From NCBI RefSeq assembly GCF_028369105.1, contig NZ_JAQNDO010000001.1:10510501-10574500 (forward strand): a stretch of 64,000 nucleotides of DNA, written 5' to 3'. The notes beneath the pieces are model-generated. The model was not told where the DNA came from and did not search any database. It saw nothing but the letters and a program-made list of their open reading frames with translations. Within the stretch, counting starts at the first letter, position 1. Each line of letters begins with the position of its first letter. This DNA comes from Polyangium mundeleinium (GTDB lineage: Bacteria; Myxococcota_A; Polyangia; Polyangiales; Polyangiaceae). Of this stretch, positions 1-40,781 are shown piece after piece. A program made the translations under genes and the position numbers.

Positions 1-1760
1 CACCCAGTCGCGAGGTCGCCTCGTCCCGCAGGAGCTCGTCGATGACGGAAAATCCCGCTTCATGCCGGATCGCCGCGTCCCAGGTCGACAGGGCCTCGCG
101 AAATGCGGGCTCCTTTTCGAGGAGCTCTCGCCCCATCCCCAGCCATTGCGATCCCTGGCCCGGAAAAACGAAGACCACCTTGGGCGGCGTGCCGCTCGCA
201 CGGCCCTGGCAGAGCCCCGCCGGGCTATCTCCGCGAATGAAGGCGCCGAGGATCGCTGCGATCTCCTGCTTCGTCTCGCCCACCACGGCGAGCCGATGCT
301 CGTGCTGGGAGCGCCGCGTGCTCGCGGTGTAAGCGATCTCCTCCAGGTCCTCCTCGGCTCTCGCGAGGTAATCGCCGTACATGTGCGCGGTCGTCGTGAG
401 CGCCGCGCTGCTCTTCGCCGACAGCGGCAGGAGATAGGCCCGCGGTGCGCCGCTCGACGGCGGCGGCGCCTCGCGGGGCGGCGCCTCCTCGAGGACGACG
501 TGGGCGTTCGTGCCGCTGAAGCCGAACGAGCTCACGCCGGCAATCCGCTTCTTCCGGCCGGGCTTCCAGGGGATTGCCTCCGATGCTACCTTCAATGGCA
601 GATCCGACCAGGCGATGTGCGGGCTCGGCGCCGAGAAGTGCAGGCTCCTCGGGATCTCGCCGTGGCGCATGGCGAGCAGCGTCTTGATGACGCCGCCCAC
701 GCCGGCCGCCGACTGCGTGTGCCCGATGTTGGACTTGAGCGAGCCGATGATCACCGGGTCATCGTGCGTCCTGACATCACGGAGCACCGCGCCGAGTGCG
801 CTCGCCTCGATGGGATCGCCGAGGGTCGTGCCGGTCCCGTGCGTCTCGACGTAATCTACGGCGCCGGGGTCGATGCCTGCGTCGGCGAAGGCGCGCCGGA
901 TGACTTGCTCCTGCGAGGGGCCATTCGGCGCCGTCAGCCCTTGGCTCTTTCCGTCCTGGTTCACCGCCGACCCGCGAATGACCGCGAGGATCGGGTCGCC
1001 GTCGCGCTCCGCGTCGGACAATCGCTTGAGCACGAGCATTCCGCAGCCCTCGCTCCACGCGACGCCGTCGGCGGAGGAGGAGAAGCTCTTGCAGCGCCCG
1101 TCCCGCGCGAGGCCTCCGAGACGGCTGAACTCGATAAACGTCGAAGGCGTTAACATCACGGCGACGCCGCCCGCGAGCGCCATGCTGGATTCCCCGGAAC
1201 GGAGGCTGCGGCACGCGAGGTGAATGGCCACGAGCGAGGAGGAGCATGCCGTATCGAGCGTCAGGCTCGGTCCGCGGAGGCCGAGCAAATACGAGAGACG
1301 TCCGGATGCGATGCTGCCGGCGTTTCCGGTCCCCATGTAGCCGTCGAGCTCCTCGGGCGCGCCGCCGGTCATGGTTGCATAGTCGTGGTACATGAGCCCC
1401 ACGAATACGCCTGCGTCCCGCCCCATCAACGTCTCCGGGGCGATTCCTGCATTCTCTAGTGCCTCGAAGCTCGTCTCAAGTAGCAATCGCTGCTGGGGAT
1501 CCATCCGCTCCGCTTCTCGCGGCGAGATGCCGAAGAATTGCGGGTCGAACTGATCGATTTCCCGCAAGAAACCACCCATGCGTGTCACGATCTTCCCGGG
1601 CACGGACGGATCGGGATCAAAATACTCGTCGATGTCCCAGCGCTCCTTCGGCACCTCGCCGATTGCATCGACGCCATCGGACAGCAATCGCCAGAACGTT
1701 TCGCCGTCGTGGACGCCGCCAGGGTACCTGCACCCGAACCCGATGATGGCGATGGGTTCT
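1..1760 (-). other. PKS module 5: KS and start of AT, cut by the window edge
   Basis: KS begins at [16 protein letters not shown] near 1755, with [13 protein letters not shown] near 1235, [11 protein letters not shown] and [11 protein letters not shown]. The AT begins near 200 ([15 protein letters not shown]); its active-site serine and specificity motif are outside the window, so the extender unit cannot be called. Confidence 0.88.
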
Positions 1761-4700
1761 TCCGGCCGGGCGGCGGCCTTCGGCGGCGGCGCGGCCGCGG
1801 CCCGAACAGCCGGGCCGCGCGTCATTTCGAGCAAATGACGCGCGAGCGCCCCCACGGTCGGGTAATCGAAGACGAGCGTCGCAGGCAATGGCTTGCCGAT
1901 CCGCTTCGACAGCGCGTTTCGCAGCTCCACGGCCATGAGCGAGTTGAGCCCGAACTCCTGGAGGGGTCGATCGACGGCAATGGATGCCTGTCCCAGCGAC
2001 ATAACTCTCGCGACGGCTGCGCGCACCATCGCCTCGATATCCTCCTGGGCGGGGACCGTCGAATCGAGCGTCGAAGTCCGCTCGACCGGCGCAGGCCCGT
2101 TGCGCCGCGACGCCTGCCTCACGGTCGTCGCGAGCAAGTCGCTCCAGGGCTTCTCCACCTCGGCTCCCCAGTACGCCCCCAGCGCCGTGACGTCGATCGG
2201 CATCAACAGGAGCTCCGCCTCGGGGTGTGCGAGCGCGCGCCCGAACATCGCGAGCCCCTCCTCCGATTCCAGCATTCGTATGCCCATGCGCGCGAGCCTT
2301 GTTTTCTGCGCTTCGGGCAGGTTCGCCGCCATGCCGCGATCGGCGAACGGACCCCAGTGATACGTCTGGGCGGAGAGCCCCTCGGCGCGACGGTGGTGCG
2401 CGAGCGCGTCGACGAACGCGTTGGCTGCCGCATAGTTTCCCTGCCCCGGCGTGCCGAAGAGCGACGTCGCGGACGAGAACGACACGAAGAAATCGAGCTT
2501 GTGGCCCCGGGTCGCCTCGTGCAGGTTCCAGGCGCCGAGGACTTTCGGTGCCATGACCTTCTCCACACGCGCGGCGGTCTGGTCGAGGAGCGGCGCATCG
2601 TCGAGCACGCCCGCAGCATGCACGATGCCTCGCAGCGGCCACGCCGCGGGTATGGAATCGACGAGCGCCTGAATGGAGGGCCCCTCCGAGACATCCGCGC
2701 GAACCACCGTGACATGCGCGCCCTCGGCACGAAGACGCTCGATCTCCTCGCGTTGTGCGGTCGTCGGCTCGCTCCGGCCCACGAGCAGGACGTGTGCTGC
2801 GCCGTGCACCTCCCACGACCAGCGAGCGACCCAGAGCCCCAGCGCTCCGAGACCGCCGGTAATGAGGATGGTCCCCTCCTTCCAGCCGATCTCGGAGCTG
2901 CCTTGCCCGCGCGTCACCTGCGCACGGACGATCCGCGCAGCGAGACGCTGACCTCCTCGATATGCGACCTCCGACTCGCGATCCGTGCTGCGAATCTCTC
3001 CCAGCATCGCGTCGACCTCGCCGACGGTCGCCGCCTCCAGGTCGACGAGCGTGCAATGAACGTCCGGGTACTCCTTTGCGAATACGCGGACGAGGCCCCA
3101 CAGTGGCGCATGCACGATCGAAATGGGATCACCGGCTGCGGTCGACTGCGCCCTCTCCGTCACCCAGATCAGGCGTCGCGGCGTCTGCTCGCGTCGCAGC
3201 AGCGTCTGCAAAATGTGCAGCGCGTCGATCGTATCGCTCTGCGCCCGCTCCGCCGCGGACCTCGCGTCGTCTCGCGCGGAAGCCCCTCCCCAGCAGCACA
3301 CGACGCCGTCGATCGGCACGTTGGTCAAGGCTTCACGCGCGTCGCCGTTGCCGCGGGTGAGCTCGTCCACGGTCTTGGCAAGGCAGGTCGCCCCCGACGC
3401 ACGAATGCGCGAAGCAATCTCGTCGACGACCGACGGGTTCTGCCCGATCGCGAGCCACGTCCCCGCGATTTCTTTTGCGGATGGCTGGATGGGCCGAGGG
3501 GACCAGCGCACGACGAACATGCTGTCTTCGGGCGATTGCTCCCCGATGGCTGCCTGCAGCGCAGCATGCGTCACCTGCCGCAGCCTCAGGCGCGAGAGGA
3601 CGGCGAATACGCGACCTTCGCGGTCCATCAGCGTCACCGTGGCTTCCAGACTCGCGCCGCTCGTCTCGGGACCACGCGTCGCCTGGACGTGTACGTAGGC
3701 CTCCGTCGCCCCGGTCCCGAACAGGTCGATTTCTCCGAACGCGAACGGCACGTGTGTATCGACGGCCGAGATCTCCAGGATGCCGAACAGCGTATGGAGA
3801 GCCGCGTCGAGCAAGACGGGATGCAAACCGTACGCGTCTCCGGGGGGCACCATCGCCGCGTCGAGAACGACGTGCGAGAATGCCTCCCGAGGACCTCGGT
3901 GAAGCTCCCTCATGGCACGGAACGCCGGGCCATATGCGAGGCCCACCCGCGCGAGGGCCTCATAAGCCTCCTCCGGCGCGATGACCTCGCGGCAGCGAGC
4001 GCGCACGGCGTCCAGATCCACGAAAGGCACTTCTTCGGCCTCGTCGAGCGGGCGTGCGACTCCCTTCGCGTGCGTTGTCCACGCACCGGACTGCGCGGAG
4101 GCGCTCGATCGGCCATGGATGGCCACCTCGAGGAGCCCCGCACGTTCCGCCAATGTGACCTGAATTGGTCGAGCCTTGCTCGGCGCGAGGTGGATCGGTG
4201 CCTCCAGGACGAGATCCGTGATCCGGACGCGCTGCGTTCGCAAATGCTGCGCAGCCGCCGCGCGCGCGAGCTCGACGAGCGCGGTACCGGGAAGCAGAAC
4301 CTCGCCGAGGACCCTGTGATCTCCGAGATACGGGGCGGCGGAGAGGCTCACCTCGCCCTGAAACACGGTTTGATCGCCCGCGAGGGACAGTTGCGCGCCG
4401 AGCCATGGATGGCCGGTTTGAGCCGCGTCGAGCCGCGTGAGCGCGTGGGCGTCGGCTGCGGTGTCGAGCCAGTACCTTTCCCGCTGCCAGGTGTACTTGG
4501 GCAATACGACGAGCCGGCCGCCCTGCGTATACATCCGCTTCCAGTCGATATGGGCTCCCGCTGCATGGAGCGCACCCACCGCCGAGAGCACGTGACGCAA
4601 ATGCTCATCGTCCTTGCGCACGGCCGCGATCGCTTGGGCTTTCGTATTCTCCGCCAGGGAGCGCGCCACGTTCGACGAGAGGACGGGGTGAGCGCCCACC

Positions 4701-7700
4701 TCCAGGAAGAGGTCGTGCCCTCCCGCCGACGCAGCCGATATGGCTTCGGCGAATCGGACCGTCTGCCGCATGTTTCTGCGCCAATAGGCGGCAGTGAGTT
4801 CCTCCCCGTCCACCGCGGCGCCCGTCACGGTGCTGATCATCCCGATCGCTGCTTTGCGGCATGACAGGGCGTCGAGCGCCTCTTCCAGCTCGACCTCGAG
4901 GTCGGCCATGAGCGGGCTATGGAACGCGTATTTCACGCGCAAATCACGGCATTTCACCGCGCGCGCCGAAAGCGACGCGACGATTTGCTCGAGGAGCTCC
5001 GCATCTCCGGAGAGGACCACCTGCTCCGGATCGTTGACGGCCGCGATCCCGACCCGATCTTCATGACCGGCGAGCGCCGCGCGAGCGTCAACCTCGGAGA
5101 GCGCGACCGCGACCATTCGACCTCGATCGGTGGCGCGCTGCATGATCGAACCTCGAATCGCGACCAGACGTGCGGCCCCCTCGAGATCCAGAATCCCCGC
5201 GACGTGCGCGGCAGCGATCTCGCCGACGCTGTGGCCAATGACCAGATCCGGCGTGACGCCCAGGCTCGAATAGAGCGCCGCGAGGGCGACCTCGTACGCG
5301 AAGAGCGCGGGTTGCGCCACGAGCGTCTGATCGAGACGCGAACGAGCCGGAGGCACGGAGAGCTCGTCGATCACCGAGAAGCCCGTATGGGGACGGAGAG
5401 CGGCGTCGCACGCCTCGAGCGCCCGGCGGAATGCAGCCGATTGCTGCAGCAAGTCCATGGCCATGCCGGACCACTGCGAGCCCTGCCCGGAGAACACGAA
5501 GACGACCTTCGACGCGGTGCTCGGCGCACGCCCCAGCGAAACACTGGAGGGAGCCTCCCCACGCACGAATGCACGCAGGAGCTCGGAGAGCTCAGCCTTC
5601 GTCCTGCCGGCGGCCGCGAGCCGGTGCTCGTGATGGACGCGCCGCGCGGACGCAGTATAGACGATATCCGCGAGGGGTGCGTCCGTTTGCGACAAGTGCT
5701 CGGCGTGGTCGTGCGCCGCCATGGCGAGGGACGCAGGGCTCTTGGCCGATAACGTGAGGAGATACGCCGGCGCGTCGTCGCACGACACCGGGCCAACCTC
5801 GCGTCGGGGGGCCTCCTCGATTACGACGTGTGCGTTCGTCCCGCTGAACCCGAACGAGCTCACGCCGGCGATCCGTGGCCTTCCATTGGGCTTCCACGGC
5901 GTCGCCTCCGACGCTACCTTGACTGGCAGCTCGGACCAGGGGATGTGCGGGTTCGGCGCCGTGAAATGCAACGACCGCGGGATGATCTCGTGCTGGAGCG
6001 ACAGCACGACCTTGATCAGGCTGGCGACGCCGGCAGCCCCCTCCGTGTGCCCGATGTTCGACTTGACCGACCCGAGGATCACCGGCTCGGAAGACGTCCG
6101 CCCCTCGGCCAGCACGGCGCCGAGCGCCTGCACCTCGATGGGATCACCGAGCGGCGTGCCCGTGCCGTGGGCCTCGACGTACTGCACGGAGGACGGGCGG
6201 ACGTTCGCCTGCGCGAGGGCCTGCATGATCACCGCCTCCTGCGACGGACCATTGGGCGCCGTCAGCCCCTGGCTCCGACCATCCTGGTTGATCGACGAGC
6301 CACGTATCACCGCGAGGATGGAGTCGCCGTCCCGCAGCGCATCGCCGAGCCGCTTCAGCACGACCACGCCACAACCCTCGGAGCGGACATACCCATCGGC
6401 GTCCGCCGAAAACGCGTGGCATCGACCCGTCGGCGACATGGCTCGCAAGCGGCTGAAGTAGACCGTGATATCGGGCTTCAGCATCAGATTGACGCCACCT
6501 GCGACAGCGAGCGTGCATTCGCCGGCGCGGAGTGCCTGGCACGCGAGGTGCACGGCCACGAGCGCGGACGAGCACGCCGTGTCCACGGCGAGGTTCGGCC
6601 CCTTGAGCCCGAGCCAGTACGACAAGCGACCCACGCTGGCGCTGTGCGCCGATCCGAGCAGCGAATACGCGTCGAGCCGCTCCGCGCCTTGGGCCAGCGT
6701 CATCGCCTGGTAGTCGTTGCCGCAAATCCCGACATAGACACCTGTCGAGCTTCCCCACAATTCGTCCGGAAGGATCCCAGCGTTTTCCAGGGCCTCCCAC
6801 GTCGTTTCCAGAAGGAGCCGCTGCTGGGGATCGATGCTCGCGGCCTCGCGCGGCGAGATCCCGAAGAACAGGGGATCGAATCGATCGATATCGTCGAGAA
6901 AGCCGCCCCAGCGCGTCGTCATCTTCCCTGCAGCGTCGGGGTCCGGATCGTATAGAGCATCGACGTCCCAGCGCGAGCTCGGCACGGTCCGGATCGCATC
7001 GACCTCTTCCGCGAGCAATTGCCAGAATGCCTCGGGGTCAGGCGCGCCCGGGAACCGGCAGCTCATTCCTACAATCGCGATGGAATCGGCGGCGTCACGG
7101 GGGCGCGGCGCGGTCACGACTGTCGAGGCGGGCGCTGCGATGGCGAGCTTCTTGTCGAGCAGGTACCGAGCGAGCTCGCGCACGGTGGGATGATCGAACA
7201 GCAACGTCGCCGGGAGGGCCTGACCGACGCGCTTCGCGAGCGCATTTCGCAGCTCGACCGCCATCAGAGAATCGAGCCCGAGCTCCTGGAGCGGCCGGTT
7301 GTCGACGATCTCGTCCTCCGACGCGAGCGAGAGCACGCGAGTCGCCTCGCGACGCACCATCGCCTCCACCTCCGAAGTGCGCGCCTCCGCGGAAAGGAGC
7401 GAAAGCTTCTGCACCCATCCCTCCAGGGCTCGAGGCGCAGGCAGGATCGACCTCGCCTTCAAAAGCAATCGCCAGAGAGCGGGAATTTCACGCCCCAGCG
7501 ATTCTCCGAGCGCGCGCAAGTCGAGAGGCAGGATACCGAGCTGCGGCGCCGCCATCGAGAGCGCCTTGCCGAGGAGCGCAACGCCCTCGGACGGGGAGAT
7601 CGCCCCGACGCCGAGCCGCCGGTAGCGCGCCCGCTGGATATCCCCCAGCGCGTCGGCCATCCCTCCTCCGCTCCAGGGGCCCCAGTTCAAGCTATGGGCC

Positions 7701-10700
7701 GCGAGCCCCTCGGCGCGCCGCGCATGCGCGAGCCCGTCCAAAAACGCATTCGCAGCGGCATAGTTGCCTTGCCCCGCAGAGCCGAGAAGCGAAGCGCCCG
7801 AGGAGAATAGCACGAAGAAATCGAGGCCCATGCCTCGTGTCACCTCGTGGAGGTTCCACGCACCGCGCACCTTGGCCCGGAACACCTGCCCGAACGCCCC
7901 GGGGGTTTGTCGGGCGATTACGGCATCGTGGACCTCACCCGCCGCGTGAATCACACCCCGCAAGGGGAACTCCGGGGTCATTTCATCGAGGACACGCCGT
8001 AGCGCCTCGATGTCCGCCACGTCGGCCTGCGCGACCGTCACACGTGCGCCCGCCGCACGCAGCGCCTCCACGGCTTGCAATCGCTCGCCAGACGGAGCGC
8101 TCCGGCCGAGCAGCACGAGGTGCGACACGCGGTGCTCCTCCCACAACCATCGCGCCACAGCGAGGCCAAGAGCGCCCAGGCCGCCGCTGATGAGCACGGC
8201 ACCGCCAGAAGCAATGGTATCGCGCCTCGGCGCGGGCAACACGACGATCTTGCCGACGTGACGCGCCTGCGCCATGAACCGGAACGCCGACTCCGCCTGT
8301 TCGATTGGAAAAACGCGCACCGGCAGGGGTCGGAGGTGCCCTCGGGCAAACCCGTCGACCACGAGCCGGAACATCTCCTGGATCCGATCCGGACCTGCCT
8401 CGAAGAGGTCGAATGCGCGGTACTCTACGCCAGGGTGATGCCGAGCGACGTCGTCCGCCGATCGGATGTCCGTCTTGCCCATCTCGAGGAATCGCCCGCC
8501 GGACCGCGTCAGCGAGAGCCCCGCGTCCACAAACGCGCCGGCGAGGGAATCGAGCACGACGTCGAACCCGTCACGCACCGCCCGGAACGCTTCCGCGAAG
8601 GCGAGGGAGCGAGAGCTCTCCACGTGCTCGACGCCCATCGCGCGCACAACATCCCATTTCGACGGGCTCGCGGTCGCGAAGACCCGCGCGCCGATCCATT
8701 GCGCGATCTGCACCGCCGCCATGCCGACGCCGCCCGCGGCCGCATGGATGAGAACGCTCTGGCCGACCTCGAGGCGACCGAGCTCGCGCAGGCCATACCA
8801 CGCCGTCAAGAACACGATCGGGATCGCCGCGGACTGCTCGAGGGACAACCCCGCCGGCGGCGCATGCGCGTAGCGCGCGTCCACGGTCGTATATCTCCGG
8901 AATGCGCCCCGCACGATGGCCATCACGGGGTCGCCCACCGAGAAGCCCGTCACGCCCTCCCCGACGGCCGAGACGATCCCGGCGCACTCGCCGCCCATCT
9001 CGACGCCCTCGGCTGGATCCATTCCGAGCGCCCGGATCACGTCGCGGAAATTCAGCCCGGTGGCCTTCACCTCGATCTCGATTTCACCCGGCGCGGGCGC
9101 ACTCCGCTCGGCAGGCACGAGGTGCAGTCGATCGAGCATGCCCTTCTGGGCGATCTCCAGGCGATACGACGGCGCATCCGGGATCTCGAATCGCTTCCGC
9201 TCCGCGACGCGCGAGAGACGCGCCACATGACGTGTCGCGCCGCGCCACAGCACCTGCGTCTCGCCGTCGCTCGCCGCCAGCTCCGACCACAACGCGGAGA
9301 GCGGATCGCGGCCATTGGGATCGAGGTCGACGAGCCGGCAGCCGAGCTCCGGCCGCTCCTCCATGATGGTGCGACCGAGGCCCCATAGCGATGTCGCGAC
9401 CATATCCACGGACTCGAATGGCGCCGCCGCATGCGCGCCCACCGTGACCAGCGTCAAGCGCGGCGTCGCGCCGTCGGCCCCGAGGAGCGACTGCACGAGG
9501 CTCAACAGGGCAATGCACGCGTCTTCGGACTGCTTCGACGGCAAGAGCGACCCGGGGGCTCCTTCCTGCTCATCCCACAGGAACACGACGTTGGAAGGCT
9601 TCGATTCAATCGTACCGTCGATCGAAGCCCCGAACGCGTCTCTCGCACCTCCGATGTCCACGAATCGCGATTGCGCGCCTGCGGCCTGCAAGCGCCCCGC
9701 GAGCCCGCGCGAAAGCGTGCTGTCGGCCCCGACCAGCAGCCACTCGCCAGCCTGCGCCTCGCTCGCCGGGTGCTCCGAGCTCGAAGGCAATGGTTTTTCC
9801 GGCCAGACGAGCTCGTACAGCCATTCCTCTCGGGTGTGACGCTTCGGGGCTTGCATGGCTGCGGCGTCGGCGCGCTTGAAGCTGATGCTCTCGATCGTCA
9901 GGACGTGCTCCCCTCCCGCGTCGAGCAGCACGACATCCCCGGTCAGCACCTCGCCGCGGGATGTTTCGGGCGTTCTCGCCGTGGCGTGCACGAAAACCGA
10001 CGTCGGGACGCGCTTCCACAAGGAAAACGTACCCAGCTCGAAGGGCAGGTACGCGCTGTCGTCCGACAAGGAGAACGCCGCTCCGATCGTCTGGAGCGCG
10101 GCGTCCAGCAATGCCGGGTGACAAGCATGGCTTTCCCCCTCGTCACCTGCGCTCTCCGGCAGCTCCAGGAGCGCGAGCGATTCTCCCTCGCCGCGATGGA
10201 TCTCTCGAATCCCCCGGAAGGCGGGGCCGTAGTCGACCCCTCGCGCGCCGAAGCTTTCGTAGAGCCGATCCGTGTCGACGGGAATCGTGCAGCGCGCGCG
10301 AATGGCCGACAACGCCGAATGCCTCGGCGCCTCGGGAGGGGCGATCCTGGTGAAGCGCCCACTTGCGTGCTCGGTCCACGCTCCGCCGGGCGGCGCCGAC
10401 AGGGGCTGACCATGGATGGCGACCGCTCCCGCTTCGCCCTCTGCGTCCGAGATCGACACCTGCACCCGCACCGCGCCTTGCTCGGGCAATACGAGAGGCG
10501 ATTGGATCGTCAGGCCCTCGATACGCAGATACGCGCCTTCCCCCAGCACCTCCTCTGCCGCGGCGCGAGCCAGCTCGAGCAGCGCCGTCCCGGGAACGAC
10601 GGGACGACCGAAGACCCTGTGATCCGACAAGTAGGGCGTCGTCTCGATCGCGAGCACGGCCTCGAAGACGGCTTTTGCTTGTGCCGCGTGAACCTGAGCG

Positions 10701-17869: not shown

Positions 17870-17884
17870 TGCTCGACTCTCTGC

Positions 17885-20800
17885 TCAGCGGCGCGCGCGG
17901 GCCCTGCGACGCGCCTCTGCGCGCTCGAGGGCCTTGTTCTGGGATACGGCCTGGGCCTCGGGTACGGCCAGGGTCGCGGCGAGCGCACCGATGTTCGGCG
18001 ATTGAAACAGAAGGGTGGGCGGGATCTCGCGGCCAAGGACCTTCCGAACGCGCTTGGCCAGGATGATGATCTGAAGGGAGGTCGCCCCTGCCTCGAAGAA
18101 GTTTTGATCCACACGGATCTCCGGAATCCCGAAGACCTCCTGCGCGATGCTCACGAGGCTCTCCTCGAGCGCATTTTGCGGCGCCGCGGCTTCGCCGGTA
18201 CGCGGCTTCGCCGCCTCCGGTTGCAGCGCGAGGAGCGCCTTGCGATCGACCTTTCCATTGGACGTCAACGGCATCGCGTCGAGCTCGACGAACGCGCCAG
18301 GGATCATGTACTCGGGCAACCGGTGCGAAAGGAAGGCTCGCATGACCTCGGAAAGCGCTCCCTCCGATCGCTCCCCTGCTCGCTGCACGACATACGCGCA
18401 GAGACGCTTGTCCACGGCCTTCTCTCCGAGCGCCAGCACGACCGCGTCCGCCACGTCCGGATGCGCTTCGATGGCGGCCTCGACCTCGCCGAGCTCGACG
18501 CGATAGCCGCGAATCTTGACCTGGAAATCCGCACGCCCGAGGATCTCGATATTGCCATCGGGGAGCCACCGGCCGAGATCGCCCGACCTGTAGAGGCGCT
18601 CTCCCGTCACGGGGTGAACGATGAAGCGTTCGCGCGTCTTTGCCTCGTCGCGCCAGTAGCCGCGCGCGAGCCCCACGCCGCCGATGTACATTTCGCCCGG
18701 CACCCAGTCCGGACGCTCGCGAAGCCGCTCGTCCAGGATATGATACGTGGCGGCGCGCATGGGACGTCCGTACGGAATGCTCTTCCACGTCGGATCGATG
18801 TCGCCCATCGGATAACAGATGTCCCAGACCGTGGTCTCCGTCGGACCGCCGGCGCCGATGATCGTGACGCCGGGGACCAGCGAGCGGAGCCGGTCGGGCA
18901 GATCGACCGGGATGAAATCGCCCGAAAAGATCACCCAGCGCAGCGAGGCGAGCATGGAGAGGGGCAAACCTGCATTCCCCTCGGCATACTCGACGAGCAT
19001 TTGCATGAACGCGGGAACCGAGTTCCACAGCGTGACCCCGTGCTCCTGCATGAGCTCGGCCCAATGCCCGGGGTCTCGCGTCTTGTCCGCGTCGGGCAGG
19101 ACGATCGCCCCGCCCACCACGCCGAGCACACAGAAGATGTCGAACACCGAAAGATCGTGATGCAGCGCCGTCAATGCGATCGCTCGATCCTCCGGCACGA
19201 GGCCGAAGCGCTCTTTGACCTCGATCATTCGGTTGGTCACGGAGCGGTGCTCGATCATGGCCCCCTTGGGCTGCCCAGTGGACCCCGACGTATAGAGGAC
19301 ATACGCCAGGCTGCGCGGGCTCTGCGAGGAGGGGAGCCGCCGCGCGTCCTCGTCTTCTTCGAGCGCCCGATCGTCCACGACGAGCACTTCGATCCCATTT
19401 CCCCACACGCGGCTCGCATACTTCGGCTGCGTCAGGACGATCCGCGCCTGACTATCCTCGAGCATGCGCGCGAGACGCTCCTCCGAACCCGCCACGTCGA
19501 GGGGGACATACGCCCCACCCGCCTTGAGCACGCCGAAGACCGCGACGACCTGCTCCCAACCTTTTTCCATGACGATCGGGACGAGCTGGTCGGGCGTGAC
19601 GCCGCGGGCGCGCAGCTCCCGCGCGAGTCGATTGGCGCGGCGGTCGAGCTCCGCGTACGTCAGCACTCGGCTCGATGTCAGGATGGCGGGTTTGTCCGGC
19701 GCGTGATCCACCTGCCGCTCGAAGAGCTCGTGGAGCAGGTCCTCCGGAGGCGGGCCTTCGCTCGTCGCATTCACTTCCTCGCGACGCGCCTTCTGCGCTG
19801 CCGGCAAGAGATCGAAATCGTAGGCGTCCCAGGCCGCATCCTCATCGGCGAGGCGGCGTAGGAGGCCCGTGTATGCGTCGAACATCTCCTGGACGAAGCC
19901 GTCCGGAAAAACGCCCGAGACGACGTCCCAGATGACCCTCGCATCTCCGTCGAGCTGCCATAGCTGCTGGTCCAGGACGAGCTGCGGGGTCTGCGTGATG
20001 CCGTAGACCATCTTGCCAATCTTGTCGAGCGCGTGGAGCCCCTCAATTTTCTGGTTCTGCAGGCTCGTGAACACCACGGGGAAGAGGGCGCCTCGATGCT
20101 CGCCCCGAGCGCGCGCGACCTCCCGCTGCACGTCGATGCCGCTCACCTCGCGATGCTCCATCGCCTCCCAGAGGTTTTGCTGCACCGAGAGCGCTCGCTC
20201 CGCGAAGGTCTGTCGCGTCGACGTGTCGACGGTGATGAGAAGCATTGACGTGAAATCACCGATGATGGTGTCGATCGCCGAATGGACGGGCAGGCGATTG
20301 AAGAGCGTCACGTTGACCGTGAGCCGCCCGCTCGATCCGAAGCGGCCGAGCACCTCGGCGTATGCCGTCAAGCAGACCACGGAGACCGACACCTTCGCCG
20401 CGCTCGCGCGTCGCTGGAGCCGCGACCATGAATCGGTGTCGAAGTGCGCCGACATGTGCTCGAATCGGACCTTTTCGAGGGTCGACGGATCTCGGGCGAC
20501 AGGCAATGCCGGCGCGGGCGCGATGTCCGCGGCGCGCTTCTGCCAGAACTCGAGAGATCTCTCGTACGCGGGGAGAAGCTTGCGCGACTCCAGCGCGAGC
20601 ACGTAATCGCGATAGGTGAGCTCGACCGGGGGGAGCGACGCGTCGGGGTTCTCGTAGAAAAACACCATCTCCTTGAAGACGATGGCGAAGCTGCCACCGT
20701 CGACGTTGATGGCGTCGATGCTGACGATGAGGCGCGTCACGCGCTCGTCCAAGCGCACGGCGACGAGGTGATGAAGGGGGGCGTGCTCGGTGTCGTAGAT

Positions 20801-21334
20801 CCGGTGGGACATTGCCGCCCGCAACTCCGAGAGCCTCGCCTCGCGCTCGACAGGGCTGAAGCTGCGCAAGTCTTCGACGTCGATATCACCTTGGAGGTCC
20901 GGCTCGACGATCTGGAGCATGTCGGGCAGGGTGTGAGCCCGCAGCATGTCGTGCCGCTCGACGACCTTGCGGAAGGCGTGACGGAGGCGTTCGACGTCGA
21001 GATCGACGCAGTCGTACTCGCGGTACAGGTGAATGCCCGTGGGTACGGCGAAAGCGCCCGTGCGACCGAGCCAGTATGCCTTCTGGATGTCGGTGAGCGG
21101 AAATGGGAGGAAGCGGTCCTCCAGCGCGGGCTCGATGGTCGCCTGCTCCTCGCCTCGCGCTTCGAGGGGGCCTTCTCGAAGCAATGCCAGAAGATCCGAC
21201 TTGTTCTGGGCAATTCTCTCGCGCAGCGCCGGCGTCAAGGTCCCTTTCGGGGCCTGGACCTGCAGTTGTTCCCCGCTCGCGGAGATCTTGATGCCGAGTT
21301 GCGCGAGCTCGTGGACGAGTTGATGGATGCTCAT
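17885..21334 (-). CDS. NRPS: TubC-type docking, heterocyclisation (Cy), adenylation (Cys-like), PCP
   Basis: Cytoplasmic NRPS of 1149 residues that condenses the PKS-made acyl chain with an amino acid and cyclises it. Residues 1-55 look like a TubC N-terminal docking domain. Residues about 65-500 are a Cy domain: the condensation motif is DAINVDGGS, the DxxxxDxxS form diagnostic of heterocyclisation. The A domain (about 520-1020) has YTSGSTGQPKG, HHDLSVFDIF and RSGDLGRW; the specificity positions I read are D-L-F-N-I-S-A-V-W-K, closest to known Cys codes. The PCP (about 1040-1115) has GATSLQ. No oxidase domain is inserted, so a thiazoline rather than a thiazole is expected. The C-terminus is very Arg/Ala-rich and may dock to the next PKS. 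It starts 6 nt after the upstream PKS stop. The Cys call is an inference by code similarity. Confidence 0.93.
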   Translation of the reverse strand: MSIHQLVHELAQLGIKISASGEQLQVQAPKGTLTPALRERIAQNKSDLLALLREGPLEARGEEQATIEPALEDRFLPFPLTDIQKAYWLGRTGAFAVPTGIHLYREYDCVDLDVERLRHAFRKVVERHDMLRAHTLPDMLQIVEPDLQGDIDVEDLRSFSPVEREARLSELRAAMSHRIYDTEHAPLHHLVAVRLDERVTRLIVSIDAINVDGGSFAIVFKEMVFFYENPDASLPPVELTYRDYVLALESRKLLPAYERSLEFWQKRAADIAPAPALPVARDPSTLEKVRFEHMSAHFDTDSWSRLQRRASAAKVSVSVVCLTAYAEVLGRFGSSGRLTVNVTLFNRLPVHSAIDTIIGDFTSMLLITVDTSTRQTFAERALSVQQNLWEAMEHREVSGIDVQREVARARGEHRGALFPVVFTSLQNQKIEGLHALDKIGKMVYGITQTPQLVLDQQLWQLDGDARVIWDVVSGVFPDGFVQEMFDAYTGLLRRLADEDAAWDAYDFDLLPAAQKARREEVNATSEGPPPEDLLHELFERQVDHAPDKPAILTSSRVLTYAELDRRANRLARELRARGVTPDQLVPIVMEKGWEQVVAVFGVLKAGGAYVPLDVAGSEERLARMLEDSQARIVLTQPKYASRVWGNGIEVLVVDDRALEEDEDARRLPSSQSPRSLAYVLYTSGSTGQPKGAMIEHRSVTNRMIEVKERFGLVPEDRAIALTALHHDLSVFDIFCVLGVVGGAIVLPDADKTRDPGHWAELMQEHGVTLWNSVPAFMQMLVEYAEGNAGLPLSMLASLRWVIFSGDFIPVDLPDRLRSLVPGVTIIGAGGPTETTVWDICYPMGDIDPTWKSIPYGRPMRAATYHILDERLRERPDWVPGEMYIGGVGLARGYWRDEAKTRERFIVHPVTGERLYRSGDLGRWLPDGNIEILGRADFQVKIRGYRVELGEVEAAIEAHPDVADAVVLALGEKAVDKRLCAYVVQRAGERSEGALSEVMRAFLSHRLPEYMIPGAFVELDAMPLTSNGKVDRKALLALQPEAAKPRTGEAAAPQNALEESLVSIAQEVFGIPEIRVDQNFFEAGATSLQIIILAKRVRKVLGREIPPTLLFQSPNIGALAATLAVPEAQAVSQNKALERAEARRRARARR

Positions 21335-21340
21335 GTCGCC

Positions 21341-24300
21341 TCAGAACGTGATGGTCTCGAGCTCTTCTTCCGCGTCGGCATTCGAAGCCTTCGCCTGCGC
21401 GCCCTCGAGCAGGCGCGCGAGAGAGACCTGCTGGAGCAGGTACGCTGCGAGCGAGCCGACGTCGTCGTATCGGCTGAGCGCCACGATCGAGGGCTCGAAA
21501 TCGAGGCCCATTCGAATGCGATTCCGGAGCTCCAGCTTCATCAACGAGTCGAGCCCGAGGTGATGGAAGGACGCGTTCCGCTCGATCTTGGACGAATCGA
21601 TGCGGAGCACATGGCCCATTTCCCGCGCCAGGAACCCCTCGAGCAGCGCGAGCCCCTCGTCGTGGTTCGCTCCCGCGATCGCCGCGCGCAGATCGTGGGA
21701 CCTGTTCGAGCGCGCGCTCTCGTCGCGCGGCCCCGCCGCGAGCAACGCGCCGAGATACGAGGATCGGGCTGCATCCGGGTAAAACTCGACCCATCGCCGC
21801 GCGTCGAATCGGACGACGCTCACGTTCGCGCGTGGATGCGCGAGCAGGCGCTCGAGCGCGAGCAGCCCCTCCCGGGGCGTCAAGCTGGCCATCCCGCGAG
21901 ATTCGAGCCGCTTGCCGCGGCTGTCGTCGGTCGCCGCGAGGCCGACCTCGGAAAACGGGCCCCACTGGATGCTCATCCCACAGAGGCCCCGGCGCTGCCG
22001 CTCATGCGAGAGCGCGTCGAGCATCGCATTGGACGCCGTATAGTTGGATTGTCCGGGCGAGCCGAGGAGCGCCGCGACGGACGAGTACAGAATGAAGAAA
22101 TCGAGATCCCGGCCCTCGGAGAGCGCGTGCAGATTCCACGCCCCCAGCGCTTTCGGCGCGAAGACGTTCCGGAAGCTCTGCTCGGTTTGCTCGAGCAACG
22201 TGCGGTCTTCGAGGATCGCGGCGGCGTGGACGATCCCTGCGAGCTTCGGCATCTGCGCGTCGAGCAGACCGAAGACCCGCTCCGCTTCCTCGCTGCGCGA
22301 GACGTCTGCCGACGCGACGAGGATCTTCGCGCCTGTCGTCTCCATGGCGGCGATCGCCTCCTGCGCCTCTCGGCCTGGGTTTCGGCGCCCGACCAGGGCA
22401 ACGTGCCTTGCCCCTCGATCGACGAGCCAGCGCGCCAGAGAGAGCCCGAGCCCCCCAAGACCACCGGTAACCAAGTACGTCCGGTCCCCACGGATCGAGA
22501 CGGGCTCCGCGGACGACGGCACGATCCGGGCTTCCGGGTCCTTCATTGCGATCGCGAGCTTGCCGATGTGCTTCGCTTGCGCCATGTACTGGAATGCCTC
22601 GGCGGCGCGCGAGGCCGGGAACGTTCGCACTGGCAGCGGCGCAAGCGCGTGCGCCTCGAACATCTCCATGAGTTCTTGAAGGAGCGCGCCAATCTCCTCT
22701 GGCTGCTGCGCCAGCAGCGCGAGCAAGTCCACGAGGGAGAACGACAAGCTTCGCAGGAACGGTCGGAGGCCGAGCGGTTTGTCTTCGTAATAGTCCCGCT
22801 TGCCGATCTCGACGAAGCGCCCGTAATCACGGAGCAAGGATAGGCTCGCCGGGATGAACTCCCCCGAGAGGGAGTTCAGGACGACGTCCACGCCCTCCCC
22901 GCGCGTGATCTGCTTGATCTCGTCGACGAAAGCGAGCGAGCGTGAATCGAACACGTGCGCCACGCCGATCGAGCGAAGGTAGGCACGTTTCTCCTCGCTC
23001 CCCGCAGTCGCGAAGACCTCCGCGCCGACATGCTTCGCCAGCTGGATCGCCGCGAGCCCCACCCCGCCCGCGCCTGCGTGAATCAACACCCGCTCGCCTC
23101 GCCGCAGGCGGCCGATGCGGACGAGCGCATAATGGGCGGTCGTGAAGACGGCGGGCAGCGTCGCCGCCTCCGCCCACGAAAACCGCGTCGATTTCGCCAC
23201 GATATGCTCGCTCCGCGCGAGCACGTGGGAGCTGAATGTGCGCGCGCCGAACCCGAGAACCTCCTGGCCGACGGACCAGCGCGTGACGCCTTCGCCCACG
23301 GCGACCACCCGCCCCGCGCATTCGAGGCCGAGCCGCGGTCCCTGCCCATCGGCCCCCGCCGCGTCGTCCGGCAGCACGCCCATGGCGAGCAGGACGTCCC
23401 GGAAGTTCAGGCCGGCCGCCTCCACTTCGACGAGCACCTCCCCGGGACCAGGAACGAGCGCGCGGGCCTCGTGCAGCGAGAGCCGCTCGAGCACGCCTGG
23501 TGATTGAATTCGTAGCTGGAAAGGTTTGTTTTGCGCGGAAACCTTGCGAGCTCCGAGGGAGGCGTGCTCGCCAGGCTCGAACGTTCCCCGAACGAGCTCC
23601 GCGACGTACCGCTCTTCGTCCCGCCACGCGACTTGATCCCCGCCCCCCTTGGCCATGAGCTCACGCCGCAAGAGCTCGCCATCTCGTTCGCTCGCTGTCG
23701 TGGCGAGATCGATCGACGTGCAGGGCAGCTCGGGGTGCTCCAGGACGAGGGTCCTCGCGAGCCCGATGAGCGGCGCCTGCCCCACCGAGACCGGCTCACC
23801 CGCACGCACGGCCTGCGCCCCGCGCGTGACCAGGAAGAGCCGCGGCGGCGACCGAAAACCATTCCGGAGGAGCGCCTGCGCCAAATACATCGCGCTCACG
23901 CTCCCGCGCGCGAGACCCGCCGAGAGCGTCTCCAGCGTCGTCGCGTCCGGCGACGCGGCGTCGAGGCTCGCGAGGTGAACGGCGCCGAGACAAACTCTCT
24001 CGGCGCCGAACGCATCTCGAAGCAATCTTCGGTAGTCGTCCGCGTTCGCCGGATCGAACGTGTAGAGATCCGGCTCGATGCGTGCATACGAGGAGCCCGG
24101 GAAGACACGCACGCAGGATCGTCCGGCAGCGCCGAGCTCCGCTTCGAGCGAGGCTCCCACGCCGCTTCGATCCATGAGCAGGAGCCACGCGCCCCCCTCC
24201 GGCAAACGCGCGGGAGGCTGAGGCTCGACGTGCCTCCAGGCGATCTCGTGCACGCATCCCTCGAGTGGGTCCTTCGTCGACGACGAGGCCGCTTCGAGGG

Positions 24301-27300
24301 GTTGCGCTCGGAGTCCCTCGATCTCGACCAGGGCGCGGCCGTTCTCGTCGACAATCCAAAGATCGCAATGCCCCGCGACCTTCGTCACGACGACCCATGC
24401 CTTTCGTGACGGCCGCGCGTGAACGGTGAGCCGCGCAATGCCCACGGGCACGTACGTCACGACATCCGCGGTCGTCGCGAGGAAGCTCATCGCGCTCTGC
24501 AAGCAAGCATCGAGCAAGGACGGATGCAGAATGTACCCGTGGTCATCCACGATGTCGGGCAGCTCGACACGACCGAGCGCCTGGCCCTCCTCCGTCCGCA
24601 GCTCGACGAGCGCTTGGAACGCCGGACCATACTCGAGCCGTCGCGCGGACATCTGCTCATAATGCTCCGCTGCAGAAAGACGGCTCGAGAGCCGCTGTCC
24701 GAGGCTCTCCGGCTTCTCCACCTGTCGCGCGGAGTCCGGGCTCCCGCTGTCGATGCGCATCACGCCTCGTACGTGGCGCGTGAAATGGGAATCCTCCGGC
24801 TCGCGGCTCGCAATCCGGAACGAGCATCGCCCCGCGCCCGTGTCGGTCAACACCACCTGCGCGATTCGTTCGCTGTCGTCGTCCCCGAGCACGAGCATCT
24901 GTTCGAACGTCACGTCTTCCAGAACCAGCTTGGCTGCGCCGAGCTTCTCCCGACCCGCGGCGAGCGCCATCTCGAGGTACCCTGCCCCGGGGAAAACGAC
25001 GGCCGCTTGCACCCGATGATCACGGAGATACGGCGTGATCTGAACGCCGAGAGTCTGTTCCCACCAATGCTCGTCGTTCTGCGCCGATGACACGAGAAGC
25101 CGCGACCCGAGGAGCGGGTGCTCGAAGCGGCCCTTCCCGTTGCCCGTGCGCCTCCGCGTGTGCGTGGCGGGCGCCCGATCGGACTCGATCCAGAATCGCT
25201 CGCGTTGCCACGGATAGGTCGGCAGCTCCACCACGCGCCCGCCCTCCGGATGGGTTCGCCTCCAATCGATGGCGCGGCCATGCACGAAGAGCCTCCCCAG
25301 GGATTGAAGCAGGCTCTGCCGCTCGTCGGCTTGCCTGTACAGCGAAGCCAGCGCCACACCTTTCGTTCCGCTCTCGCGGAGGTTCTCCTCCACCGATGGA
25401 ACCAGGATCGGGTGAGGGCTCATTTCCAGGAAGACCGTGTACCCCTCCCGAATGAGCTCTCGTGTGGCCTGGGAAAAGAGCACGGGCTTCCGCAGGTTCT
25501 CGGCCCAGTAGTCGGCATTCAGCTCGTCGCCCGAGATCGGTGCGCCGGTCACGGTCGAGCGCATCGCGATGCTCGACTTTCTCGGAGAAAGGCCGGCGAG
25601 GGCCGCGACGAGCTCGCCTCGCAGCGGCTCCATCTGCGGACTATGGGACGCGACGTCCATCTTCACGCGTCGGAAAAATACCTCTTTCTCCTCGAACCTC
25701 GCGAGGACCTCCGCGAGCGCTCCGGGCTCGCCGGCGATCACCGTCGAGCGCGGGCCATTGCTCCCAGCCACGCTCAGGCGCGTCTCGTATCCGACGAGCG
25801 CCCGCTCCGCGTCCGGCAACGCGAGCTCCACCAGCGCCACCGCGCCTTTCCCGCTCATGGTGCCCATCAGTCGACTTCGACGACCGATGACCGCCGCAGC
25901 ATCCTCGAGCGAGAGCGCGCCGGCCACGTAGGCGGCCGCGACTTCGCCCATGCTATGGCCCACCACGGCGTCCGGCACGACGCCCCAGGACCTCCAGAGC
26001 GCCGCGAGCGCCACTTCGATGGCGAACAGCACTGGTTGCACCACGCTGCCCTCGGCGAGCCGCGATCTCGCCTCTTCGGCGCGGAGCTCGTCCACGACCG
26101 AAAGGCCGCACTCGGGCCGGAGCGCGGCGTCACAGGCCTCGATCGTCTCCCGAAACACCGGCTCCTCCGCGAGGAGCTGCCTGCCCATCCCCACCCACTG
26201 CGAGCCTTGACCGGGGAACACGAAGACCACCTTCGGCGCCGACAGCGGCGAGGTACCGTGCGCGATGGCCGTCGGCTCCTCCCCGCGCCCGAAGGCCTCG
26301 AGCGTCTCCGCGATCTGCTCCCTCGAATTGCCCACGATGGCGAGGCGATGTGTGAGGTGGCTCCGCCGGACGCTCGCCGTGAATGCGATGTCCGAGAGCT
26401 CGATTTCGGGCGTCTTGCGGATGTGCTCTCCCATCCTCCTCGCATGATCGCGGAGCGCCGACGCGGTATGCGCCGACAGCGGCAAGATTTGGGACCTGGC
26501 GCGGTCGCGCAGCTCCTCGGGTTCGCGCGGACCCAACGCGGCAAGCGATTCGGAGAGCACGGCATGGCTACGCTCGTCCCGACGCATGATCGGCAGGGTA
26601 AGCCCGGACAGACCCAATTCCGCGAAACATTGCTCGATCGGGCGGACGAGCAAGGGATGCGGGTCGAGGTCGAGGAAGGCCTCGTGTCCATGCCGGAGGA
26701 GGAGCGACGTCGTCTCCGCGAACAGCACGGGCTCGCGGAGGTTCCTGCACCAGTAAGCCGCGTCGAGCGCCGCGCCGTCGATGCGATCCCCCGTCACCGT
26801 GGAGTAGAACGGAATCGCACCGGAGCGCGGCGACAACCCCTCGAGCGCCTCGGCGAGAGAAGGCAGGAGCGAATCCATCTCGCGGCTGTGGGATGCGTAG
26901 TCGACCTTGATTCGCCGGCAGGTGACGCCCTCCCGCTCGAGCTCCGTGACCAATGCCTCGAGCGCCGCTTCGTCCCCCGACAGTACGGTCGCGCTCGGGC
27001 TGCTGCTCACGGCAATGGACACGCTGTCGCCGCGGCCCTCGAGCGCCCGCTTCGCGGCAACCATCGGGAGCTCGACGACGGCCATCGCCCCCTTGCCCGA
27101 CGCCCGCGTGACGAGCTTGCTCCGTACACAGATGACGCGCGCGGCGTCGTCGAGGTCGAGGCAACCGGCCACGTGCGCGGCGGCGACCTCGCCCATGCTC
27201 TGTCCTACCACCGCGCAGGGCTCGACGCCGAGCGACCGCACGAGCGACGCGAGGGCGACCTGCACCGCGAAAATGGCCGGTTGCACCTTCGGCGTCTCCT

Positions 27301-29077
27301 CGAGCCACCCTGCGTCTTGCGAGAGGAGCACATCGAGGAGGGAGCCCTCCATATGAGGACGCATCGCCACGTCGCAGCGCTCGATCGCGGCTCGAAATGC
27401 AGGCTCGACGAGGAGGTCCATCCCCATCCGCAGCCATTGTGAGCCCTGCCCGCCGAAGACGAACACTGGCGCGCCCCTGGGACGAACGCGGCCGAGCTTC
27501 TGCGCGGTCGTCATGCCGCCTTCGAGGACGACATGGCAATTCGTTCCGCCGAACCCGAACCCACTCACGCCGGCCAGCCGCCGGCCCCCGTGCTCGGGCC
27601 ACGGCTCGACGGTGGTCGGTACCGCGAGGCGAAGAGCTTCGAGATCGATATGCGGGTTCGGCGATTGAAAATGGAGGTTCGGGGGGACCACGCCGTTTCG
27701 CAGCGAGAGCGCCGTCTTGACGAGACCGGCGATTCCGGCGGCCGCCTCGAGGTGACCGATGTTCGTCTTCACCGCGCCGAGCCGGAGCGGTCTGTCCGGG
27801 GAGCGCCCCGCCCCGAGCACGGCTCCGATCGCGCCCGCCTCGATGGGATCGCCGAGCATGGTGCCCGTCCCGTGCGTCTCGACGAAGTGAACGTCGCGCG
27901 CGTCGATCCCCGCGTCCGCATACGCGTCGCGAAGGACGAGTTCCTGCGCCTTCGGGCTCGGCGCCGTCAAACCATTGCTCGCGCCGTCGTTGTTCATTGC
28001 GCTGCCGAGCAGTATGCAATGGATGCTGTCGCCATCGGCAATGGCGCGCGAGAGGGGCTTCATCACGACGACGCCGCCGCCCTCGCCCCGAACGTAACCG
28101 TTCGCCCGGGCATCGAACGCCTTCGATCTACCGTCGGGCGCCATAGCGCCGAACTTCGACATGGCGACCGTGCTCTCCGGGGAGAGCAAGAGGTTCACGC
28201 CACCCGCGAGCGCGAGGTCGCATTCGCCGAGTTCCAGGCTGCGGCGTGCATGATGGACGGCGACGAGCGACGAGGAGCAGGCCGTATTGAAGGCAATGCT
28301 GGGCCCACGAAGACCGAGCGTGTACGACACGCGGGCAGGGATGATGCTGAGGTCCTGTCCCGTCGCCGAATGCTGGGTCATGGCAGCACGCCTGTCGTCC
28401 GGTATGTCGGCGTAGTCGTGCCACATCGCGCCCATGAAGACGCCCGTCCGGCTCTCCTCGAGCGAGCGAGGCGGGATCCCGGCGCTCTCGAGCGCCTCCC
28501 ATGCGAGCTCCAGCACGAGCCGTTGCTGCGGGTCCATCATCATCGCTTCACGCGGAGAGATGCCGAAGAACTGGGGATCGAACTGATCGACCTGGTCCAG
28601 GAATCCAGCCCATTTCGTCGACATCTTCCCGGGCGCGCTGACGTCTTTGTCGTACAGCGCGTCGACGTCCCATCGATCCCTGGGCACTTCGGAGATCGCG
28701 TCCACGCCCGAGCAAAGCATCCCGAAAAACGAGGCGAGATCCGGAGCGCGGGGGAACCGGCAGGCCATCCCGACGATCGCCATCGGCTCCTTCGCCGCCA
28801 TCCCGCTACGCGCAGCGAGCCGCGGCGCGACGGGCTCCTTTCCCCGATCGCCGGCCAGATAACCGAGGAGGGACTCGAGCGTCGGATACTCCCAGGCGAG
28901 TGTTGGAGCGAGAGGGCGCCCGAGCTTCCGCCCGAGGTCCGCCACGATCCGGGTCATATCCATCGAGTCCAGTCCATGGCGGCTGAACGGCGCGTGCACG
29001 TCGATCGAGTCGGGCGATGCCCCCCGTTTGGCCGCCACCCGTTGCATCAACCAGCTGCGGAGGTCCTCCATGTCCAT
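21341..29077 (-). CDS. PKS with loading functions: ACP-KS-AT-AT-DH-ER-KR-ACP
   Basis: First protein of the hybrid line, 2578 residues. ACP 1-75 (HGLDSMD, Ser38); KS 98-520 (Cys267, His402, His442); AT1 about 538-840 (GQSMGE, Ser627; YASH 727-730); AT2 about 950-1240 (GHSMGE, Ser1042; VASH 1142-1145); DH 1319-1600 (His1354, Asp1523); ER 1855-2180 (HAGAGGVGLAAIQ); KR 2198-2380 (VTGGLGGLG, Tyr2346); ACP 2475-2550 (LGLDSLM, Ser2511). Tandem ATs with an N-terminal ACP are known from myxobacterial starters such as myxothiazol, stigmatellin and soraphen, where one AT loads the starter acid on the first ACP and the other loads the extender. By that precedent AT1 would choose the starter and AT2 methylmalonyl. 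The DH motif is HRVQAAVVFP, with Ala for the usual Gly. The start has a strong AGGAAGGAGA ribosome binding site. Confidence 0.95.
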   Translation of the reverse strand: MDMEDLRSWLMQRVAAKRGASPDSIDVHAPFSRHGLDSMDMTRIVADLGRKLGRPLAPTLAWEYPTLESLLGYLAGDRGKEPVAPRLAARSGMAAKEPMAIVGMACRFPRAPDLASFFGMLCSGVDAISEVPRDRWDVDALYDKDVSAPGKMSTKWAGFLDQVDQFDPQFFGISPREAMMMDPQQRLVLELAWEALESAGIPPRSLEESRTGVFMGAMWHDYADIPDDRRAAMTQHSATGQDLSIIPARVSYTLGLRGPSIAFNTACSSSLVAVHHARRSLELGECDLALAGGVNLLLSPESTVAMSKFGAMAPDGRSKAFDARANGYVRGEGGGVVVMKPLSRAIADGDSIHCILLGSAMNNDGASNGLTAPSPKAQELVLRDAYADAGIDARDVHFVETHGTGTMLGDPIEAGAIGAVLGAGRSPDRPLRLGAVKTNIGHLEAAAGIAGLVKTALSLRNGVVPPNLHFQSPNPHIDLEALRLAVPTTVEPWPEHGGRRLAGVSGFGFGGTNCHVVLEGGMTTAQKLGRVRPRGAPVFVFGGQGSQWLRMGMDLLVEPAFRAAIERCDVAMRPHMEGSLLDVLLSQDAGWLEETPKVQPAIFAVQVALASLVRSLGVEPCAVVGQSMGEVAAAHVAGCLDLDDAARVICVRSKLVTRASGKGAMAVVELPMVAAKRALEGRGDSVSIAVSSSPSATVLSGDEAALEALVTELEREGVTCRRIKVDYASHSREMDSLLPSLAEALEGLSPRSGAIPFYSTVTGDRIDGAALDAAYWCRNLREPVLFAETTSLLLRHGHEAFLDLDPHPLLVRPIEQCFAELGLSGLTLPIMRRDERSHAVLSESLAALGPREPEELRDRARSQILPLSAHTASALRDHARRMGEHIRKTPEIELSDIAFTASVRRSHLTHRLAIVGNSREQIAETLEAFGRGEEPTAIAHGTSPLSAPKVVFVFPGQGSQWVGMGRQLLAEEPVFRETIEACDAALRPECGLSVVDELRAEEARSRLAEGSVVQPVLFAIEVALAALWRSWGVVPDAVVGHSMGEVAAAYVAGALSLEDAAAVIGRRSRLMGTMSGKGAVALVELALPDAERALVGYETRLSVAGSNGPRSTVIAGEPGALAEVLARFEEKEVFFRRVKMDVASHSPQMEPLRGELVAALAGLSPRKSSIAMRSTVTGAPISGDELNADYWAENLRKPVLFSQATRELIREGYTVFLEMSPHPILVPSVEENLRESGTKGVALASLYRQADERQSLLQSLGRLFVHGRAIDWRRTHPEGGRVVELPTYPWQRERFWIESDRAPATHTRRRTGNGKGRFEHPLLGSRLLVSSAQNDEHWWEQTLGVQITPYLRDHRVQAAVVFPGAGYLEMALAAGREKLGAAKLVLEDVTFEQMLVLGDDDSERIAQVVLTDTGAGRCSFRIASREPEDSHFTRHVRGVMRIDSGSPDSARQVEKPESLGQRLSSRLSAAEHYEQMSARRLEYGPAFQALVELRTEEGQALGRVELPDIVDDHGYILHPSLLDACLQSAMSFLATTADVVTYVPVGIARLTVHARPSRKAWVVVTKVAGHCDLWIVDENGRALVEIEGLRAQPLEAASSSTKDPLEGCVHEIAWRHVEPQPPARLPEGGAWLLLMDRSGVGASLEAELGAAGRSCVRVFPGSSYARIEPDLYTFDPANADDYRRLLRDAFGAERVCLGAVHLASLDAASPDATTLETLSAGLARGSVSAMYLAQALLRNGFRSPPRLFLVTRGAQAVRAGEPVSVGQAPLIGLARTLVLEHPELPCTSIDLATTASERDGELLRRELMAKGGGDQVAWRDEERYVAELVRGTFEPGEHASLGARKVSAQNKPFQLRIQSPGVLERLSLHEARALVPGPGEVLVEVEAAGLNFRDVLLAMGVLPDDAAGADGQGPRLGLECAGRVVAVGEGVTRWSVGQEVLGFGARTFSSHVLARSEHIVAKSTRFSWAEAATLPAVFTTAHYALVRIGRLRRGERVLIHAGAGGVGLAAIQLAKHVGAEVFATAGSEEKRAYLRSIGVAHVFDSRSLAFVDEIKQITRGEGVDVVLNSLSGEFIPASLSLLRDYGRFVEIGKRDYYEDKPLGLRPFLRSLSFSLVDLLALLAQQPEEIGALLQELMEMFEAHALAPLPVRTFPASRAAEAFQYMAQAKHIGKLAIAMKDPEARIVPSSAEPVSIRGDRTYLVTGGLGGLGLSLARWLVDRGARHVALVGRRNPGREAQEAIAAMETTGAKILVASADVSRSEEAERVFGLLDAQMPKLAGIVHAAAILEDRTLLEQTEQSFRNVFAPKALGAWNLHALSEGRDLDFFILYSSVAALLGSPGQSNYTASNAMLDALSHERQRRGLCGMSIQWGPFSEVGLAATDDSRGKRLESRGMASLTPREGLLALERLLAHPRANVSVVRFDARRWVEFYPDAARSSYLGALLAAGPRDESARSNRSHDLRAAIAGANHDEGLALLEGFLAREMGHVLRIDSSKIERNASFHHLGLDSLMKLELRNRIRMGLDFEPSIVALSRYDDVGSLAAYLLQQVSLARLLEGAQAKASNADAEEELETITF

Positions 29078-34302: not shown

Positions 34303-34318
34303 CTAACGCACTCGGCTC
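34303..34318 (-). ncRNA. 5' half of domain V of group II intron 1
   Basis: The minus strand reads GAGCCGAGTGCGTTAG, the start of a domain V hairpin, directly after the reverse-transcriptase gene. It ends at the CTAA target duplication of the IS1182-type element. Confidence 0.75.
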
Positions 34319-40715: not shown

Positions 40716-40781
40716 GTGGGCCTCGGACTCTATATGTCGTCAGCCCCCGTGAATGTACCGACGGATCGAAAAAAAAAGTTA

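Follow-up and report, generated by a model that had tools for sequence, protein, structure and literature searches.

A four-gene PKS-NRPS line

The window, which is the whole 64,000-nucleotide stretch analyzed here, covers positions 10510501-10574500 of contig 1 in a two-contig Polyangium genome (13.25 Mb). Four minus-strand genes (A-B-C-D), lying head to tail and totaling 43.4 kb, extend leftward from window position 29077 to a point 14.3 kb beyond base 1, and we followed the sequence past the window to reach this end. Within the span 1-29077, which holds about two thirds of the PKS-NRPS cluster, there are three minus-strand ORFs (29077-21341, 21334-17885, and 17869 to past base 1). The intergenic gaps are short or overlapping, and genes C and D are joined at an ATGA, where the start of gene D overlaps gene C. 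The line consists of the following features (negative positions lie left of the window):

21341..29077, minus strand: gene A, 2578 aa, ACP-KS-AT (loading, GQSMGE)-AT (methylmalonyl, VASH)-DH-ER-KR-ACP (ORF, Pfam, motifs)
28856..29053, minus strand: N-terminal loading ACP of gene A (Pfam PP-binding, aa 9-74; phosphopantetheine site HGLDSM)
17885..21334, minus strand: gene B, 1149 aa, TubC_N docking-Cy-A-PCP, without Ox (Pfam, motif, A code)
19805..21103, minus strand: Cy domain of gene B (Pfam Condensation, aa 111-439; DxxxxDxxS motif)
18335..18382, minus strand: A8-A10 site of gene B, where EpoB and the G089 relative have Ox, absent here (MAFFT alignment, PF00881)
13460..17869, minus strand: gene C module 2, KS-AT (methylmalonyl, VASH)-KR (LDD)-ACP (Pfam, motifs)
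7145..13459, minus strand: gene C module 3, KS-AT (malonyl, YAFH)-DH-ER-KR-ACP (Pfam, motifs)
1820..7144, minus strand: gene C module 4, KS-AT (malonyl, YAFH)-DH-KR-ACP (Pfam, motifs)
1..1819, minus strand: gene C module 5, first part, KS and start of AT (methylmalonyl, VASH) (Pfam, motifs)
left of the window to -3745 (G000:C1:10506755), minus strand: remainder of gene C module 5, with DH-KR-ACP (Pfam, motifs)
-3742 to -14316 (G000:C1:10496184-10506758), minus strand: gene D, 3524 aa, module 6 KS-AT (malonyl)-DH-ER-KR-ACP, then C-A-PCP-TE (Pfam, motifs)

Gene C encodes four PKS modules (KS-AT-KR-ACP, KS-AT-DH-ER-KR-ACP, KS-AT-DH-KR-ACP, and KS-AT-DH-KR-ACP); its window portion contains three of these KS-AT-starting modules whole and part of the fourth (Pfam). 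Each PKS module has its own AT with a catalytic GxSxG, as in cis-AT lines, and a carrier domain is present in every module. The sites that we inspected are in place: the catalytic residues of the KS (cysteine), AT (serine), and DH (His/Asp pair) domains, the nucleotide motifs of the ER and KR domains, and the serines of the carrier domains. Gene B has a TubC_N docking domain, and gene A ends in an acidic tail (ELETITF). The line ends in gene D, where Pfam placed a thioesterase (PF00975), with the motifs GWSFG and HYTL, after the C-A-PCP module.

An initial annotation of the window had described a hybrid PKS-NRPS line with cysteine-type heterocyclization, a reading supported by the ORFs, Pfam domains, and motifs. 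The module order that it gave (reducing, Cys/Cy, methylmalonyl-KR, malonyl-DH-ER-KR, malonyl-DH-KR, and at least one more) agrees with the Pfam domains and motifs; the additional module is the methylmalonyl-DH-KR module 5, which is followed by gene D with module 6 and the NRPS module. It had also proposed extending the sequence left of base 1 to the release domain, and doing so located the TE at the end of gene D. Its loading module plus fully reducing module was right as to the domains but not as to a separate loading module, since gene A, with two carrier stretches, one KS, and two AT stretches (Pfam), has an interleaved ACP-KS-AT-AT loading arrangement. The same interleaved start is found in MiuA (miuraenamide) and in the soraphen, myxothiazol, myxalamid, and chondramide lines (PMC10051162).

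AT specificities were calibrated on the epothilone genes of Sorangium cellulosum So0157-2 (loci L110-L112 and L007), since the structure of their product is known. In that cluster, VASH occurs in the methylmalonyl modules (EpoC, the last module of EpoD, and EpoE) and HAFH in the malonyl modules. In the query line, modules 1, 2, and 5 carry VASH and are predicted to use methylmalonate, and modules 3, 4, and 6 carry YAFH or VAFH and are predicted to use malonate. The loading AT (the first in gene A) reads GQSMGE rather than GHSxGE and also carries YASH; its sequence points to no particular starter. Module 3 has VHD in its KR, and the KRs of all other modules have LDD or a near variant. Two DH domains, in gene A (HRVQAAVVFP) and in module 5 (HRVGDDVVFP), depart slightly from HxxxGxxxxP, and dehydration at these two steps is therefore an assumption.

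The predicted cysteine module and its missing oxidase domain

The Cy domain of gene B carries DAINVDGGS, matching DxxxxDxxS, in place of HHxxxDG, and the EpoB Cy structure 5t7z matches gene B over aa 1-499 (E 2e-183). Gene B is 71% identical to a relative in another Polyangium genome (G089) and 55% identical to EpoB (over Cy and A). Its A code, DLFNISAVW, is identical to that of the G089 relative and shares 5/9 positions (D, L, N, S, and W) with the classic Cys code DLYNLSLIW, which is the code of EpoB; Ox-bearing relatives in two further genomes (G099 and G104) have DLYNVSAVW. The A domain appears Cys-like and is predicted to activate cysteine. Because the code differs from the classic one, we considered whether the heterocycle might instead come from serine or threonine and be an oxazoline. 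We regard this as very improbable: the code keeps N278, S301, and W331 of Cys codes and does not follow the Ser/Thr patterns known to us (DVWHLSLID and DFWNIGMVH), and EpoB, whose module is known to use cysteine, belongs to the same lineage as gene B.

Pfam detected no in-line FMN oxidase (Ox) domain (PF00881) in gene B, whereas PF00881 was detected in the G089 relative. In a MAFFT alignment, both the G089 relative and EpoB have Ox inserted between A8 and A10, a stretch that is cleanly missing from gene B, and gene B and the G089 relative are 77.8% and 74.5% identical in the segments flanking the missing domain. A tree of 76 Cy-A proteins (quick method, SH-aLRT support) paired gene B with the G089 relative at 100% support and joined EpoB to the pair at 99%, all three within a clade rich in Ox. 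The simplest reading is that the gene B lineage has lost Ox. Gain of Ox in the relatives is possible in principle, but loss is favored because EpoB, as the outgroup, has Ox and gene B nests within the Ox-rich clade. The same Cy-A clade also contains Ox-less genes in two other genomes (G083:C1:12951929-12955387, in L114, and G084:C1:13090662-13094120, in L090), with the Cys-like codes DLYNVSAVW and DLYNLAAVW; these genes suggest that Ox was lost more than once in the clade.

With the Ox domain missing, the ring is expected to stay a thiazoline. The thiamyxins are myxobacterial PKS-NRPS products whose thiazolines come from Cy modules without Ox (PMC10100342). In principle, the ring could be converted to a thiazole by an oxidase encoded at another place in the genome; the nearest relatives have Ox in line, and another NRPS of the same genome contains one Ox domain. 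However, that domain is embedded in an NRPS 2 Mb away, no oxidase gene adjoins the line, and our search of the genome found no close stand-alone Ox, returning just two weaker matches, one within another NRPS and one 24% identical. We therefore consider a thiazole improbable. The probable thiazoline of the initial annotation is strengthened by these observations, since the two closest relatives have Ox at the site that is empty in gene B and the genome contains no close stand-alone homologue. The comparison offers a natural experiment in which an Ox domain inside an A domain was apparently lost without breaking the A8-A10 region, and it could be of use in engineering thiazole and thiazoline synthetases.

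The proposed assembly and product

We propose, with a probability of roughly three in four, that the four proteins form a complete colinear line (in the order A, B, C, D) making a thiazoline polyketide-amino acid product. The first AT of gene A would load an acyl starter onto the N-terminal ACP, and module 1 would add methylmalonate with full reduction. Gene B would then activate cysteine, and its Cy domain would condense and cyclodehydrate it to a thiazoline, which would be left unoxidized because the Ox domain of the gene B lineage is missing. Modules 2-6 would give CH(OH)-CHMe, CH2CH2, CH=CH, CH=CMe, and CH2CH2, and the terminal module (C-A-PCP of gene D) would add one amino acid, probably hydrophobic. 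By colinearity, the predicted chain would be starter-CH2-CHMe-thiazoline-CH(OH)-CHMe-CH2CH2-CH=CH-CH=CMe-CH2CH2-CO-NH-CHR-CO.

This proposal is least certain as to the starter, the last amino acid, and the way the ring closes. The terminal A code, DAFYMGSVI (read by hand), suggests a hydrophobic residue, and to our knowledge it has no close match among described A codes; the C domain of gene D reads HHIGLDL rather than HHxxxDG. The TE would release the chain, most likely by ring closure through the hydroxyl next to the thiazoline, which would form a 15-membered macrolactone that bears the thiazoline in its side chain. TE sequence does not tell macrolactonization from hydrolysis, and the same line might instead release an open-chain thiazoline acid (or ester) with no macrolactone. 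In the thiamyxin system, TE ring closure onto a hydroxyl has been proposed, and that line yields both ring and open forms (PMC10100342). Against hydrolysis, the predicted nucleophilic hydroxyl would be spaced for a normal 15-membered ring, and we think release by hydrolysis a serious possibility but less probable than not. The predicted product is a 2-(2-methylalkyl)thiazoline polyketide-amino acid, as the 15-membered macrolactone or the acid. As an example, an isobutyryl starter and leucine would give C28H46N2O3S, with a computed [M+H]+ of 491.330. Over the several starters and residues for which masses were computed, the macrolactones would fall at m/z 407-525 ([M+H]+), and the corresponding linear acids would be heavier by 18.01.

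More tentatively, the line may represent a thiazoline counterpart of the epothilone layout, in which an EpoB-lineage synthetase with its Ox domain precisely excised serves a new 15-membered polyketide-amino acid macrolactone; we know of no described macrolactone of such a scaffold with a thiazoline side chain. The biosynthetic logic is already well known, and the general interest is moderate. Still, the four genes are a compact and complete line with no evident tailoring and a specific structure prediction, which makes the line tractable for expression or mass-guided isolation.

Known relatives, distribution, and genomic surroundings

Epothilone (EpoA-EpoF, Sorangium cellulosum) is the nearest known system that we met. 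It shares with the query line a starter part, a docking-Cy-A-PCP module of the cysteine type, a PKS of several modules, and a release domain, as well as the layout of a macrolactone with a heterocycle side chain. EpoA, however, is KS-AT-ER-ACP, whereas query gene A is ACP-KS-AT-AT-DH-ER-KR-ACP; EpoB has Ox, whereas gene B does not; the epothilone line ends in a PKS module and the query line in C-A-PCP-TE; and module count and order differ. We rejected assignment as an epothilone-type cluster, since the loading, module order (that of EpoA-EpoF was not found), and end are all different.

The G089 Polyangium line (contig 21, 49352-75518; L097 and L098) shares the ACP-KS-AT-AT loading, a Cy-A-PCP gene 71% identical with an identical A code, and a following KS that is 71% identical. 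It differs in having Ox, in placing two PKS modules before the cysteine and only two after it, in having genes on both strands, and in that no terminal NRPS module was detected. The PKS genes that flank its Cy-A-Ox-PCP gene are both encoded on the other strand. The thiamyxins differ from the predicted product in their GNAT loading, mostly NRPS modules, methylthiazolines together with thiazoles, and lack of a long polyketide part.

Among 108 family genomes, the best relatives of gene B were those in G089 (71%) and, next, EpoB (55%). At a stringent cut-off in a 379-genome sample of the phylum, the G089 relative was the only match, and a pattern-based scan of 84,980 species, from which the query genome and very near genomes were perhaps left out, gave EpoB of So0157-2 as the best match. 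The terminal C-A-PCP-TE of gene D had matches of at most ~47% within the genus, and the loading region (N-terminal 602 aa of gene A, family-level search) reached 63-64% in other lines. Among the NCBIfam matches listed for genes A and B and for the end of gene D, none was an equivalog above its cut-off. No orthologous line was found in the 108 family genomes, the 379-genome phylum sample, or the 84,980-species pattern scan, and our searches of the open-access literature turned up no line or product of matching module order.

The initial annotation could match the module order to no known metabolite, and this holds for the collections searched, in which no orthologous line was found; epothilone is clearly different. 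The soraphen, myxothiazol, myxalamid, chondramide, and miuraenamide lines differ from the query line downstream of the loading module, and we know of none among them with the query module order. That the product is an already known metabolite whose cluster went unrecognized seems unlikely, given that our open-access literature searches yielded no such line or product and that no orthologous line was found in the sequenced relatives searched. Judged from its genes, we take the cluster to be real, complete, orphan, and of a known kind, with a product structure that we infer.

We found no gene for tailoring, regulation, or transport next to the line. To the right of gene A are DUF6312, DUF6200, and ABC1-kinase genes and then a patch of mobile elements, which separates the PKS line from the next NRPS:

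32785-34236: DUF772 transposase
34303-35061, 35267-36556, and 37874-39163: three reverse-transcriptase ORFs
37713-37948 and 38731-38953, minus strand: two group II intron D1-D4-6 matches (Rfam)
39231-41159: IS66 pair

Beyond the patch is a second cluster (window 49872 to 67273, extending into L005) with two NRPS genes (2151 and 3766 aa), ABC-transporter ORFs at 46631-50073, and a DUF6875 ORF; Pfam reported no TE in it (49.9-67.3 kb). We rejected this NRPS as part of the line, as it is ~20 kb away, has its own ABC-transporter genes, and is cut off by the transposase, reverse-transcriptase, and group II intron sequences.

To the left of gene D, an alpha/beta-hydrolase gene and a phage-integrase fragment are followed by genes of the contractile-injection type. 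The integrase fragment (157 aa, L003:13675-14148), near the left end of the PKS line, may be an old insertion border. The contractile-injection genes (L003:5692-11760, 24.3 to 18.2 kb left of the window) comprise two sheath-like proteins, a gp19-like tube protein, and a Pvc16 N-terminal domain protein, and resemble those of an extracellular contractile injection system.
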